Assembly (NCBI RefSeq): GCF_900114785.1
Contig: NZ_FOUG01000015.1
Span: 62,001-126,000 of the forward strand
Reading direction: 5' to 3'
Length of the DNA: 64,000 bases
Origin: Variovorax sp. OV329
Lineage (GTDB): Bacteria > Pseudomonadota > Gammaproteobacteria > Burkholderiales > Burkholderiaceae_C
A program made the translations under genes and the position numbers. The notes beneath the pieces were generated by a model. It did no database searches. It was not told where the DNA came from and saw only the letters and a program-made list of their open reading frames with translations. Below are positions 42,976 through 47,921 of the stretch, piece by piece. Within the stretch, counting starts at the first letter, position 1, and the number at the start of each line of letters is the position of its first letter.

Positions 42976-44082
42976 TCAGCTGAACAGCCGGCGCGCCAGC
43001 ACGGAGCCGGCGGCGAGGTCGCGCGAATCGAGGGTGTCGTAGAGCTGCTCGAGGTCGGCGCCGATGATGTCCATGGTGTCCTCGCGAAGCAGCTGGCTGT
43101 CGCCGTCGGTCACCACGCCATCCATCTCGCGGGCCAGCGCAGTGGCAACCTCGCGCATGCGGTTGAAGGGCTGCTCGCCGCGGTCCACCTGCGGCACGTC
43201 CAGGCTCAGCACCAGCTCGCGGATTGCCGACTGCGTGGGGTCGTCCGCCAGCGCAGCCTGGGTGTCGAAGGCCAGGCCGAGGATGGGCGGCAGGCCGTTC
43301 TCGCTGGCCGGCAGCACCATGCGGCCGGGCAGCAGGCCGGCCACGAAGCCCAGGCGCGCCGCGTTCTGCTGCACGTAGCCGGGGCTCCAGGCCGCGTGGC
43401 GGGCGCGCAGCACGAAGCTCAGCTGCGCGTCGTGCGAGCTGGCGAACTGGTCGAGCTCGCGCGCCCGGCCCACCTCGTCCAGCATCTCGGGGAATTGCGG
43501 CGTGCCGTTGACCGCATCGGCGAAGGCCGAGGCCTTGACGGTGAATTCGGAGAACTCGATCTCGTTGAGCGCACCGGTGCGATTGGCCATCTGCACACCA
43601 GCCTGGAAGGCGCGGTAGCGTTGGCCGGGCGCCGGCTGCTCCCACTGGCCGCTCGCATGGTTCAGGCCCTCGATGGCCACCGGCTTGCTGCCCGCGCGGC
43701 GCGTGGCCGGCATGGCGGCCAGGGCCGCCTCGCCCGACACGACGCCGTCCAGAGCGATGGGCGCGATCACGTCGATGAGCGCGTCGAGGGCACCGCGGCG
43801 TTCCACCGCGCCCGCACCCAGCGCCGTTGGTGCCGGCAGGTCCGGATCGAAAAGCGGCTCGTGCCGGTCGGCCCCCGGGTCCGTCGGCGGGTCCACATGC
43901 AGCACGGGTTCCTCGCTATCTTCGCGCCGCAGCGGCTGGGGTGCGGACGCCGCGGCCTCTTCGGGCGAGAGCTGGGTTGGCTGGCGCGGCGTGTTGCGAC
44001 GCGAGGTCCAGGCGTTGTAGCCAATGACGGCAGCAAGCACCAGGCCGCCGAGGATCGCGAGCGCGACGGTGAGGTTGCTCAT
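42976..44082 (-). CDS. zipA: Cell-division protein ZipA homolog (FtsZ-binding C-terminal domain)
   Basis: Inner-membrane division protein of 368 residues. One N-terminal transmembrane helix (MSNLTVALAILGGLVLAAVIGY) is followed by an acidic Pro-rich linker (about 30-120) and a C-terminal ZipA-like domain with GRMVLPASENGLPPILGLAF and the VDRGEQPFNRMREVATALAREM block. The start has a GGAG ribosome-binding site. It sits between smc and ligA, a standard order. Its ATG overlaps the stop of an upstream 18-codon micro-ORF, the second of two tandem units derived from a duplicated leader. Confidence 0.85.
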   Translation of the reverse strand: MSNLTVALAILGGLVLAAVIGYNAWTSRRNTPRQPTQLSPEEAAASAPQPLRREDSEEPVLHVDPPTDPGADRHEPLFDPDLPAPTALGAGAVERRGALDALIDVIAPIALDGVVSGEAALAAMPATRRAGSKPVAIEGLNHASGQWEQPAPGQRYRAFQAGVQMANRTGALNEIEFSEFTVKASAFADAVNGTPQFPEMLDEVGRARELDQFASSHDAQLSFVLRARHAAWSPGYVQQNAARLGFVAGLLPGRMVLPASENGLPPILGLAFDTQAALADDPTQSAIRELVLSLDVPQVDRGEQPFNRMREVATALAREMDGVVTDGDSQLLREDTMDIIGADLEQLYDTLDSRDLAAGSVLARRLFS

Positions 44083-44135
44083 TCGGAAAGCTCCGTGCTG
44101 CGCACTGCGGTGCGCGCGGCCGTGTGCGGGCTCAT
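44079..44135 (-). CDS. Micro-ORF 2 upstream of zipA (18 codons)
   Basis: ATG 44135 overlaps the stop of micro-ORF 1 (ATGA) and is preceded by CGGAGGTTTTCG. The peptide is MSPHTAARTAVRSTELSE. Its TGA overlaps the zipA ATG (44082) as ATGA. Its own last codons contain the CGGAG that serves zipA. The arrangement fits a translational-coupling leader rather than a functional peptide. Confidence 0.5.
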   Translation of the reverse strand: MSPHTAARTAVRSTELSE

Positions 44136-44200
44136 TCGAAAACCTCCGTGCTGCGCACTGCGGTGCGAGCCCCCTTCGGAGCGGCCGTGCGGGGGCTCAT
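44132..44200 (-). CDS. Micro-ORF 1 between smc and zipA (22 codons)
   Basis: ATG 44200 overlaps the smc stop as ATGA. The peptide begins MSPRTAAPKGA and ends RTAVRSTEVFE, so it is a paralog of micro-ORF 2 with a four-residue insert. Its TGA overlaps the micro-ORF 2 ATG. It contains the ribosome-binding site for micro-ORF 2. Confidence 0.5.
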   Translation of the reverse strand: MSPRTAAPKGARTAVRSTEVFE

Positions 44201-47200
44201 GCCGCCTCGGCCATCGAGGCTGCGGCTTCCATGTCCACCGCGACGATGCGCGAGACGCCCTGCTCCTGCATGGTCACGCCGATCAGTTGCTCGGCCATCT
44301 CCATGGCGATCTTGTTGTGGCTGATGAAGAGGAACTGGGTCTCTTTGCTCATGGCGGTCACGAGTTTGGCATAGCGCTCGGTGTTGGCGTCGTCCAGCGG
44401 CGCGTCCACCTCGTCCAGCAGGCAGAAGGGCGCGGGGTTGAGCTGGAAGATGGCGAAGACCAGCGCGATGGCGGTCAGCGCCTTCTCGCCGCCCGAGAGC
44501 AGGTGGATGGTCTGGTTCTTCTTGCCCGGTGGCTGCGCCAACACCTGCACGCCCGAATCCAGGATCTCGTCGCCCGTCATCACCAGCTTGGCGTTGCCGC
44601 CGCCGAAGAGCTCGGGGAACATGCGGCTGAAGTGGTCGTTGACGATCTTGAAGGTACCGCCCAGCAGCTCGCGCGTCTCGCCGTCGATCTTGCGGATGGC
44701 GTCCTCCAGCGTGCCGATGGCTTCGTTCAGGTCGGCGGACTGCGCATCCAGGAAGGTCTTGCGCTCGCTGGCCACGTTCAGCTCGTCCAGGGCAGCCAGG
44801 TTGACCGCGCCCAGTGCAGCGACTTCGCGGTGCAGGCGGTCGATCTCGGTCTGCAGGCCCGTCAGGCGCACCTTGTCGGACTCGATGGAAGCGGCCACTG
44901 CCTCCAGGTCGGCCTGCGCGTCGGTGAGCAGCTGCGAGTACTGCTCGAAGCCCAGGCGCGCCGCCTGTTCCTTGAGCTGGAACTCCGTGATGCGCTGGCG
45001 AAGCGGGTCGAGCGCGCGCTCGATCTGCAGGCGGCGCTCGTCGCTGGCGCGCAGCTTGATGGTCAGGTCGTCGTACTGGCTGCGGGTGGCGCCCAGGGCC
45101 GCCTCGCGCTCCATCTTCAGCGACAGCGCGTTCTGCAGGCCGGCCTGCGCCGCTGCGTCTGACAGCCGCTCCAGCTCGGCGCGGGCACGCCGGTCTTCGT
45201 CGGCGAGCGACACGGACTGCTGCTCGGCCGTCTGGATGGCGCGCTGCAGCTCGGCGCGCCGCGCGTCGAGGGTGCGCTGTGCGAAGGTTGCCTCCTGCGC
45301 CTGGCGCTCCAGGCTGCGGTGCTGCTCGCGGCTGTCGGCCAGGCGGCGCTGCGCCTCGATGACCTTCTCGTCGAGCTGGGCGTGGCGCTCCTGGCTATCG
45401 GCCAGCTGCATGTCCAGTTCCTCGAAGCGGGCCTCGGCGGCGACGCGGCGCTCCTGCAGCTCTTCGAGTTGCGCGTTGACCTCGCCCAGGTCGGAATTGA
45501 GCTGCGCGCTGCGGGCGCGGGTCTGCTCGGCCAGCTGCGTCAGGCGCAGCGTCTCCACCTGCAGCTCGTGCGAGCGCGACTGGGTGTCGGCGGCTTCGCG
45601 CCGGGCGGTGACCAGGCGCGAGGCAGAGTCGGTGTAGGCGGCCTCGGCTCGCACCAGCGCGCTGCGGGCCTCTTCGCTGAGCAGGGCCTGGGCACGCAGC
45701 TGGCGCTCGAGGTTCTCCATCTCCTGCTGGCGGGCCAGCAGGCCGGCCTGCTCGGAATCCTGCGCGTAGAAGTTGACGCCGTGGGCCGACACGGCATGGC
45801 CGCTCTTCACATAGATCACGCCGCCCGGGGGCAGCTTGTCGCGCAATGACAGCGCCTCTTCGAAACTCTGGGCGGTGAAGCTGTCATGCAGCCAGTCGGA
45901 CAGCAGGGCCTGCAAGCCGGCGTCGTTCAGGCGCAGCAGGTCTGCCAGGCGCGGCAGGCTGCCGGCGGCTGCGGGCTGCGCGGCACTGGGCGGGCTGTAG
46001 AAGGCCAGCTTTGCGGGCGGCGCGTCCTTGCCCTCGGCACCGAGGAAGCCGCGCACCATGTCCAGGCGGCTGATCTCCAGCGCGCCCATGCGCTCGCGCA
46101 AGGCGGCTTCCAGTGCGTTCTCCCAGCCCTGCTCGATGTGGATCCTGGTCCACAGGCCCTGCAGGCCTTCCAGGCCGTGCCTGGCGAGCCAGGGCGCGAG
46201 CTTGCCGTCGGTCTTGACCTTCTCCTGCAGGGCGCGCAGCGCCTCCAGGCGGGCGGACAGCTCGGCATGGCGGGCGCTCTCGGTGTTGACCTGCTGCTGC
46301 TTCTCGCGCCGCGACTCGTCCAGCAGCGGCACCGATTCCTGCAGCTCGTGCAGGCGGGCATCGGATTCGCTCGCGGCTTCCTGCGCGGCGGCCAACTGCT
46401 CCTGCATGTCGGCGAGCTTGGCCTCGTCGGGCGCGGCCAGGGCGCGCTTGTCGGTTTCGAGCCGCTCGGCGCGGACGCTGAGCTGGCGCACCTGGTCGTC
46501 GATGTTGCGCTGGTCCGCCGCCAGCACCTGGATCTGCTGCTGCACCTGCGTGACTGCCACCCGCTGCGAGTTGGCCTCGTCCTGGGCGCGCTGCTGCGCT
46601 TCTTCCAGCTCGGGCATGCGGGCGTCGTGCTCCTCGAGCTGCGCGGCCAGGAGGATCGCTTGCTCCTCGGCGTCCACGCCCTGCCCGGCCAGCGTCTCGA
46701 TCTCGGCCTGGGCTTCCTCGCGACGGGTGCCCCACTGCGCGATCTGCTCCTTGAGCTGGACCAGGCGCTGCTCGACGCGCTGGCGGCCCTCGACCACGAA
46801 GCGGATCTCGCCTTCGAGCCGGCCGACCTCGGCGCTGGCCTCGTACAGCTTGCCCTGCGACTGGTTGACCTGGTCGCCGGCCGCGTAGTGGGCCTGGCGC
46901 ACGGTTTCGAGCTCAGCCTCGACATGGCGCAGCTCGGCGGTGCGGGCTTCAAGGTCGTTGATGGACTTTTCGGCGTCCATCTTGATCTTGGCCTGATCCG
47001 CCTCGCTCTCGCCGCGCTTGAGGAACCACAGCTGGTGCTGCTTGCGCGTGGCATCGCCCTGCAGCGTGTTGTAGCGCGCCGCCACCTCGGCCTGCTTCTC
47101 CAGCTTCTCGAGGTTGGCGTTGAGCTCGCGCAGGATGTCTTCCACGCGCGTCAGGTTCTCGCGCGTGTCCGAGAGGCGGTTCTCGGTCTCGCGGCGGCGC

Positions 47201-47724
47201 TCCTTGTACTTGGAGACGCCGGCGGCCTCTTCGAGGAACAGGCGCAACTCTTCCGGCTTGGATTCGATGATCCGGCTGATCGTGCCCTGGCCGATGATGG
47301 CGTAGGCCCGCGGGCCCAGGCCGGTGCCAAGGAACACGTCCTGAACGTCGCGCCGGCGCACGGGCTGGTTGTTGATGTAGTAGCTGCTGGTGCCGTCGCG
47401 GGTGAGCACGCGCCGCACCGCGATCTCGGTGAACTGGCTCCACTGGCCGCCGGCGCGATGGTCCGCGTTGTCGAACACCAGTTCCACGCTGGAGCGGCTG
47501 GACTGCTTGCGGCTGGTGGTGCCGTTGAAGATCACGTCCTGCATGGACTCGCCGCGCAGTTCCGAGGCGCGCGATTCGCCCAGCACCCAGCGCACCGCGT
47601 CCATGATGTTCGACTTGCCGCATCCGTTGGGGCCGACCACGCCCACCAGCTGCCCGGGCAGCATGAAGTTGGTCGGCTCAGCGAAGGATTTGAAGCCGGA
47701 AAGCTTGATCGAGTTGAGGCGCAC
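44197..47724 (-). CDS. smc: Chromosome segregation ATPase SMC
   Basis: Condensin-type SMC of 1175 residues that organises and segregates the nucleoid. The Walker A head motif is VVGPNGCGKSNIMDAVRWVLGE (about 30-50). Long coiled coils (about 165-495 and 665-1000) flank a hinge (about 505-640, LARHGLEGLQGLWTRIHIEQ to VIYVKSGHAVSAHG). The C-terminal head has signature LLSGGEKALTAIALVFAIF and Walker B CLLDEVDAPLDDAN. GTG 47724 gives the universal start VRLNSIKLSGFKSF; a TTG 18 codons upstream was rejected. Its stop overlaps the first of two micro-ORFs leading to zipA. Confidence 0.96.
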   Translation of the reverse strand: MRLNSIKLSGFKSFAEPTNFMLPGQLVGVVGPNGCGKSNIMDAVRWVLGESRASELRGESMQDVIFNGTTSRKQSSRSSVELVFDNADHRAGGQWSQFTEIAVRRVLTRDGTSSYYINNQPVRRRDVQDVFLGTGLGPRAYAIIGQGTISRIIESKPEELRLFLEEAAGVSKYKERRRETENRLSDTRENLTRVEDILRELNANLEKLEKQAEVAARYNTLQGDATRKQHQLWFLKRGESEADQAKIKMDAEKSINDLEARTAELRHVEAELETVRQAHYAAGDQVNQSQGKLYEASAEVGRLEGEIRFVVEGRQRVEQRLVQLKEQIAQWGTRREEAQAEIETLAGQGVDAEEQAILLAAQLEEHDARMPELEEAQQRAQDEANSQRVAVTQVQQQIQVLAADQRNIDDQVRQLSVRAERLETDKRALAAPDEAKLADMQEQLAAAQEAASESDARLHELQESVPLLDESRREKQQQVNTESARHAELSARLEALRALQEKVKTDGKLAPWLARHGLEGLQGLWTRIHIEQGWENALEAALRERMGALEISRLDMVRGFLGAEGKDAPPAKLAFYSPPSAAQPAAAGSLPRLADLLRLNDAGLQALLSDWLHDSFTAQSFEEALSLRDKLPPGGVIYVKSGHAVSAHGVNFYAQDSEQAGLLARQQEMENLERQLRAQALLSEEARSALVRAEAAYTDSASRLVTARREAADTQSRSHELQVETLRLTQLAEQTRARSAQLNSDLGEVNAQLEELQERRVAAEARFEELDMQLADSQERHAQLDEKVIEAQRRLADSREQHRSLERQAQEATFAQRTLDARRAELQRAIQTAEQQSVSLADEDRRARAELERLSDAAAQAGLQNALSLKMEREAALGATRSQYDDLTIKLRASDERRLQIERALDPLRQRITEFQLKEQAARLGFEQYSQLLTDAQADLEAVAASIESDKVRLTGLQTEIDRLHREVAALGAVNLAALDELNVASERKTFLDAQSADLNEAIGTLEDAIRKIDGETRELLGGTFKIVNDHFSRMFPELFGGGNAKLVMTGDEILDSGVQVLAQPPGKKNQTIHLLSGGEKALTAIALVFAIFQLNPAPFCLLDEVDAPLDDANTERYAKLVTAMSKETQFLFISHNKIAMEMAEQLIGVTMQEQGVSRIVAVDMEAAASMAEAA

Positions 47725-47921
47725 GAGCTCTTGCCCTGCCTGGCCGGGTTCTGCCTGTATGGCAGGACTTCGATCCAAGCTGTTGATTTACAAGGAATTT
47801 GATCGCAGGGGGAACTGCGGGTCGAGGCGAGGATGATAACTTGCGGTGCCTCATCCCGACGTCCTGGGAGTCCCCAAGTGACCAATGTCAACGACGCATG
47901 CAGCGCCGCCGCGTCTGCGTG

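Follow-up and report, generated by a model that had tools for sequence, protein, structure and literature searches.

Palindromic elements of Rickettsia are insertions within genes that keep the reading frame. The repeat units described here resemble them as small, very probably mobile repeats tolerated in a coding context, but whereas the Rickettsia elements lie inside genes and in frame, the units occupy the space between genes, where they reset the frame. With MITEs the units share a short length, a dispersed distribution and non-autonomy; however, the two ends of a unit (GCGCC... and ...GGTnnTCC) are not terminal inverted repeats when compared by eye. The ATGA found at both ends of a unit could represent a target duplication, but no right-hand copy was seen at one of the sites, between tig and clpP. 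REP sequences are likewise short, present in many copies and endowed with covarying hairpins, and encode no mover of their own. They differ in being extragenic and in flanking RAYT genes, whereas the units occupy start/stop junctions, leave a frame open and have no RAYT beside them; PMC2817692 describes RAYTs as always flanked by their own REPs. The remaining comparison is with translationally coupled genes that overlap in ATGA, and for these PMC6728339 reports tests of termination-reinitiation in E. coli and H. volcanii, in which Shine-Dalgarno motifs were often but not always important. The 4-nt ATGA overlap and a preceding Shine-Dalgarno sequence recur at each junction studied here, but in the systems of PMC6728339 the overlaps join ordinary gene ends, while here a dispersed repeat splits one overlap into two or more. 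On the best reading, the units belong to a small, non-autonomous mobile repeat with the ATGA junction as its niche.

The window, which is the whole 64,000-nt stretch of Variovorax sp. OV329 DNA that was analysed, includes a minus-strand segment in which smc is followed by two micro-ORFs and a zipA-like gene (Table 1). Three same-strand 4-nt stop/start overlaps are present. In the first, the smc stop overlaps the ATG (44200-44198) of micro-ORF 1 (MSPRTAAPKGARTAVRSTEVFE); in the second, the micro-ORF 1 TGA (44134-44132) overlaps the ATG at 44135 of micro-ORF 2 (MSPHTAARTAVRSTELSE); and in the third, the micro-ORF 2 TGA (44081-44079) overlaps the zipA ATG (44082-44080). This layout had been described in the first-pass annotation, and re-reading of the sequence found it exact to the base. 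The identity of smc is firm (NCBIfam TIGR02168, 1056 bits). The zipA-like product scores 21.1 bits against the ZipA model TIGR02205, below the cut-off of 119.65, and the name is thus likely rather than proven.

Table 1. Features of the smc-zipA junction, with positions counted from the first base of the window.
Feature	Positions	Strand	Basis or remark
smc, upstream gene	44197..47778	-	stop TGA 44199-44197, part of first ATGA
micro-ORF 1, 22 codons + stop	44132..44200	-	inside repeat unit 1, type B-long
micro-ORF 2, 18 codons + stop	44079..44135	-	inside repeat unit 2, core match
zipA-like gene, downstream	42976..44082	-	weak match to TIGR02205
24-bp core, unit 1	44144..44167	-	core search
24-bp core, unit 2	44091..44114	-	core search
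stem-loop 1, unit 1, GAGCCCCC...GGGGGCTC	44167..44198	-	covariation in B subfamilies; folded
triloop hairpin GTGC-GCA-GCAC, unit 1	44148..44158	-	family covariation
triloop hairpin GTGC-GCA-GCAC, unit 2	44095..44105	-	sequence and family covariation
Shine-Dalgarno-like GGAGGT, precedes micro-ORF 2 start	44142..44147	-	sequence
Shine-Dalgarno-like GGAG, precedes zipA ATG	44091..44094	-	sequence

Each micro-ORF is contained in a repeat unit. Unit 1, counted from the ATG at 44200 to the base preceding the ATG at 44135, is 65 nt long, and unit 2 is 53 nt long, having lost stem-loop 1 in a net loss of 12 nt that leaves its length at 2 mod 3. The 24-bp core is the same letter for letter in both, with two matches in the window and none in 100 shuffles. 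The two units are 85% alike over 53 nt and may have arisen by local tandem duplication. The first-pass annotation had already suggested a tandem duplication, specifically of the zipA leader; the leader origin is unsupported, since the unit belongs to a family-wide repeat, and it is the local duplication that may stand. Unit 1 corresponds to the family-model match G000:C14:106132-106203 (E 1.9e-16), though it belonged to the training set of that covariance model.

Reading the copies together with their flanks distinguished three main types, A (65 nt), B-long (65 nt) and B-short (62 nt), alongside some others; the units of the window are of the B-long kind. The usual order within a copy is NTGA, one or two hairpins, an AGCACGRAGGT-like segment with a Shine-Dalgarno sequence, about 6 free bases, and ATGA. 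The left-end NTGA was found in 244 of 247 copies (E under 1e-3), the start codon there being ATG in 230, GTG in 10, and CTG and TTG in 2 each. The micro-ORF, usually of 21 or 22 codons, ends in a stop that overlaps a start codon in 205 of these 244 copies, continues in frame beyond the unit in 33 and stops near the end without an overlap in 6; an early stop inside the unit was found in none of the 244. Long in-frame read-through was observed at L040, L117, L104, L263, L167, L241, L257 and L192, apparently giving N-terminal extensions of the downstream protein, and the annotated starts of genes downstream of read-through units may be wrong.

Overlap-ending units measure 53, 59, 62, 65, 68, 71 or 92 nt, all 2 mod 3 as the stop/start overlap requires. 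Where no following unit was recognised (198 copies), the distance was 65 nt in 149 copies, 62 nt in 20 and some other value in 29, and these 29, several of which depend on untrustworthy automatic start calls, are distributed as 8 in phase 2, 13 in phase 0 (fusion) and 8 in phase 1. Free variation in frame and length had been named in advance as the observation that would speak against a relay from smc to zipA, and the outcome is mixed, with a single phase in the overlap-ending units and all three phases among the odd-length copies. L003, L201 and L222, three copies that were inspected by hand, are in a phase that gives neither overlap nor fusion, with the micro-ORF stop at most 11 nt from the start, and in a fourth (L211) the overlap with the downstream gene extends over 109 nt. 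Tandem arrays consist of neighbouring units joined head to tail via a common ATGA; one array in the Variovorax genome from which the window derives, on contig C33, has 4 units at 66-nt spacing, and the array at L209 has 5 copies of the core.

The hairpins are kept by compensatory change, as in REP palindromes, weakly so in the case of stem-loop 1 of type A. In B-long copies 311 of 341 cells of stem-loop 1 are paired (at most 297 with shuffled arms) and in B-short copies 243 of 250 (at most 233), while in type A 708 of 756 are paired and 39 of 2000 shuffles reach as high. The triloop hairpin GTGC-GNA-GCAC, which adjoins the Shine-Dalgarno sequence, has 215 of its 224 cells paired over 56 distinct segments, including 7 double-changed cells, and none of 2000 shuffles is as high; these shuffle tests all ignore relatedness among the copies. 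The loop is GNA in 45 of the 56 segments. A hairpin drawn from the consensus, CGCAC-CGCA-GTGCG, was rejected for lack of covariation support (609 of 2000 shuffles as high) in favour of the overlapping GTGC-GNA-GCAC form. Folding energies are ordinary, with z of -1.20 for the pair in the window and -0.64 to 0.86 for the other five. Hairpins of the d(GCGNAGC) kind are unusually stable as DNA, and the GNA triloop may hint at a function for DNA in single-stranded form. That movement would take place as a folded single strand is suggested by three features together: the hairpins, a left end that stays constant, and the lack of terminal inverted repeats.

The repeat is dispersed. In its own Variovorax genome the core occurs at 19 places at 3 or fewer mismatches, and the reversed pattern at none. 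A covariance model built from 19 units of that genome gave at least 34 matches there below an E of 0.01 and at least 37 when E was allowed up to 1, with the best family E-values reaching 1e-23; the counts are a lower bound because unit 2 of the window is not among the matches listed. The model has matches in all 37 Variovorax genomes searched and, across the GTDB family, in 116 of 250 genomes representing 80 of 141 genera (E up to 0.001). In other families of the order (24 genomes from 24 families), one match was marginal (E 0.007) and 23 genomes were without a match. The exact core was found in at least 117 stretches across genomes, 80 of which are listed, and the named genomes among those listed are of Xenophilus, Hydrogenophaga, Rhodoferax, Acidovorax, Ramlibacter, Xylophilus, Curvibacter, Giesbergeria, Pseudorhodoferax, Aquabacterium, Methylibium and Rubrivivax. 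Metagenome bins also appear among them, two being labelled Gammaproteobacteria and Hydrogenophilales. The core search in the genome and its relatives that the first-pass annotation had called for thus returned dispersed matches, and its suggestion of a dispersed linker compatible with coding is supported by the own genome, the 37 genomes of the genus, the 80 genera and the filled and bare dapE-prmB sites described below.

Four plasmid records carry units, three from Variovorax and one from Diaphorobacter. In the latter, pDCB2 (IncP, typed conjugative; L440), a unit lies between genes for an ABC transporter and a lysophospholipid acyltransferase, and the pDCB2 unit represents a possible route of transfer between genera. 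Phages gave no match to the repeat and viral contigs none to the exact core, and carriage by phages or viruses was rejected on these searches. Rfam returned no match at gathering score in 4 loci and none at E up to 1 for window positions 43900-44400, and no apparent description of the repeat was found in open-licence PMC literature as judged by title and the start of the abstract.

Sites that are bare in some Variovorax and filled in others define the unit. Of the 30 dapE-prmB loci of the genus, 23 show the ATGA overlap bare, 6 contain a single unit and in 1 a different insert is present. In the 6 filled sites a 65-nt unit is placed exactly at the ATGA, dapE keeps its end and prmB its start, and ATGA is found on both sides, as opposed to once when the site is bare. 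At sites with bare relatives, the unit is seen to be a precise insertion with no loss on either side, and precise insertion of about 65 bp into ATGA overlaps is well supported by these comparisons. The two nearest relatives of the own genome (L351 and L352) are bare at dapE-prmB, and its unit is without a compensatory double change (GCGC/GCGC) common to the other five copies; hence it represents a separate gain. On the dapE tree the filled or bare state requires 4 changes, at least 3 of them forced by well-supported branches, so that units must also have been lost precisely or exchanged between species. At prfA-prmC, units (two) were found only in the own genome among 30 loci, with a bare ATGAgc at L381, L386 and L391. 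Other inserts, of a CTCCCTCCC..GGGGAGGG type and of another GC-rich sequence, were seen at L363 (dapE-prmB) and L397 (prfA-prmC), indicating that both junctions accept several kinds of insert.

At smc-zipA itself, no unit is present in 26 of 30 loci of the genus (the 30 include the own locus), and the spacers there measure -4 to 19 nt. In the closest relative (L295) the insert is diverged and contains a single 39-codon frame, which still terminates at the zipA ATGA; L299 has a single unit of 22 codons with matching ends, and L297 has a related repeat, type C, in reversed orientation.

The units are copies of a dispersed repeat of 62-65 bp, and it is highly likely that this repeat is a non-autonomous mobile element that occupies ATGA junctions and brings a Shine-Dalgarno sequence and a start codon with it. 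Where bare relatives are known, the insertion target is an ATGA that is a start codon and usually also the stop of the preceding gene. After insertion the old ATG is the start of the micro-ORF, while the far end of the unit supplies the Shine-Dalgarno sequence and a second ATGA combining the micro-ORF stop with the downstream start, and further copies chain head to tail through the ATGA into arrays. Given the usual lengths of 2 mod 3 and a stop-free frame, any ribosome that initiates at the original ATG would terminate precisely on the second one, where it could reinitiate; the ATGA junction may be a safe site for a non-autonomous mobile element. In the window, smc and zipA are separated by one full and one shortened unit, and changes in the SMC:ZipA ratio, if any, would be a by-product. 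A wider proposal, of which we are slightly less than half persuaded, is that the units represent a class of non-autonomous mobile DNA adapted to translational junctions, which inserts at ATGA with its own stop-free frame, Shine-Dalgarno sequence and start, rebuilds the junction, can form arrays within operons while leaving both genes intact, and has reached at least 80 genera of one bacterial family, probably moving via single-strand hairpins with the GNA triloop.

The neighbours of units are many unrelated gene pairs. A codon-phase GC test was applied to the 236 copies that had sufficient flank. In these the left TGA is a gene end in 166, the end of a previous unit in 29 and neither in 41, and the right end is a gene start in 178, another unit in 33 and a failure in 25; genes at both ends pass in 126 and both ends fail in 7. 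In several of the 41 left-end failures the upstream stop is a few bases earlier (e.g. L141 and L152). The target is better described as an ATGA at a start codon, usually a stop too, because these 41 copies are without an exact upstream gene end. An upstream frame open for at least 60 codons, found in 203 of 244 copies, was dropped as evidence of a gene end, as it is inflated by high GC content (shifted frames 63 and 160). In two annotated plasmid records the CDS of the neighbours stop and start at the ATGAs of the unit, and the micro-ORF is unannotated. Two sites other than coupled junctions were also observed. At tig-clpP the unit lies directly 3' of the tig stop and has no right-hand NTGA, and among 30 loci a full unit is present in 3 and apparent deletion remnants, judged by eye, in 4; the remnants (L445, L447, L450 and L453) appear to be internal deletions, which suggests decay where a start codon need not be kept. 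The other site is convergent, with a unit at L103, L184, L213 and L250.

Translation of the micro-ORFs is predicted from their layout. The main lengths of 65, 65 and 62 nt, with a stop-free frame ending on the next start, favour it, as do the diverged smc-zipA inserts of L295 and L299 that still end at the zipA start, and termination-reinitiation across a unit is plausible. The stepwise hand-over of ribosomes from smc to zipA proposed in the first-pass annotation would fit this anatomy. Two further arguments for translation were rejected. Stop avoidance is not confined to the coding frame, with 0 observed against 5.9 expected in frame 0, 1 against 10.6 in frame 1 and 8 against 8.2 in frame 2, and the unusual lengths (8, 13 and 8 over the three phases) show no clear skew.

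Whether the smc-zipA pair is a dedicated device, in which translated micro-ORFs set the SMC:ZipA ratio or sense translation, is a separate matter. Its three perfect ATGA overlaps, the Shine-Dalgarno sequences in both units and the matching ends of the inserts in L295 (39 codons) and L299 (22 codons) are what such a relay would predict, but the absence of any unit from 26 of 30 loci and the presence of the same repeat between many unrelated gene pairs leave it unsupported and make a dedicated relay improbable, and the earlier proposal of a ratio device or of a link between nucleoid organisation and division was not upheld. A family of functional small peptides (RTAVRST-K/E) is more doubtful still. 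A core peptide is common to the subfamilies, and synonymous changes slightly exceed the roughly 30% expected, in type A (137 of 360, 38% against 29% expected), B-long (56 of 143) and B-short (39 of 86). However, the bases of the conserved stretch are those of the hairpin and the Shine-Dalgarno sequence, compensating indels in the 5' half separate types A and B when the two are compared by eye, base-pair covariation affects positions at which a change alters the peptide, and in 33 of 244 copies the frame stays open beyond the end of the unit, in several of them as an extension of the downstream protein. The peptide appears to bear little sign of selection. Chance or convergent similarity of GC-rich gene ends can draw on the high GC content and on the abundance of ATGA overlaps in prokaryotes, as stated in PMC6728339, but is refuted by the lack of matches in shuffles and to the reversed pattern, by E-values to 1e-23 and by the bare sites in relatives, and its probability is negligible.

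The mover, by comparison with REPs, might be a RAYT. Covarying hairpins, many copies and a lack of terminal inverted repeats are features of a REP-like element moved by a RAYT (TnpA-REP) transposase, and exactly one Y1_Tnp match was found in 21 of 23 genomes of the genus (none in 2). Yet no unit was found within about 2 kb of the RAYT-like Y1 gene at 20 loci (19 from the genus and 1 other; best E-value 2), and a different repeat lies in its downstream flank, while RAYTs are described in PMC2817692 as always flanked by their REPs. The single-copy RAYT-like gene was rejected as the mover for want of units beside it, and the RAYT reading as a whole is unlikely. The Y1 loci of the genus are L330-L348 (e.g. 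G000:C33:274962-275285). The repeat downstream of the gene is of the form tgtcccc...gaatctgacccc. The gene that follows in Variovorax is presumably gltB.

If the preferred reading, a mobile repeat that lands on and rebuilds the stop/start overlap, is correct, it would explain how elements can build up in tight bacterial operons, where mobile DNA finds little space. Sister species with an overlap bare in one and filled in another would provide many natural before-and-after pairs for the effect of an additional termination-reinitiation on protein ratios. Such a repeat also counsels caution, as conserved micro-ORFs between operon genes can be repeats and not peptides.

Type C (CCCCCTCGGGGGGCAGCG..GTGGGGGC) is a related, longer repeat that has its 5' half in common with the unit. 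Its pattern was found at 45 places, spread over 11 of the 13 genomes searched within the genus; 8 other genomes had none. In the 27 readable of 30 loci the left NTGA is absent from 16 and present in 11, and 7 of these 11 were read as junction copies, the frame running up to a start codon that is followed by a long frame. These counts indicate that the ATGA habit is in part common to type C and far stronger in types A and B. Examples are L173:6381-6480, L172, L164, L238 and L410-L439. The copy at L173 has a frame of 29 codons that is joined by an ATGA overlap at either end, and is located after an ftsW-like and before a murG-like gene, named from reading of the sequence; at other loci type C is often plain intergenic.
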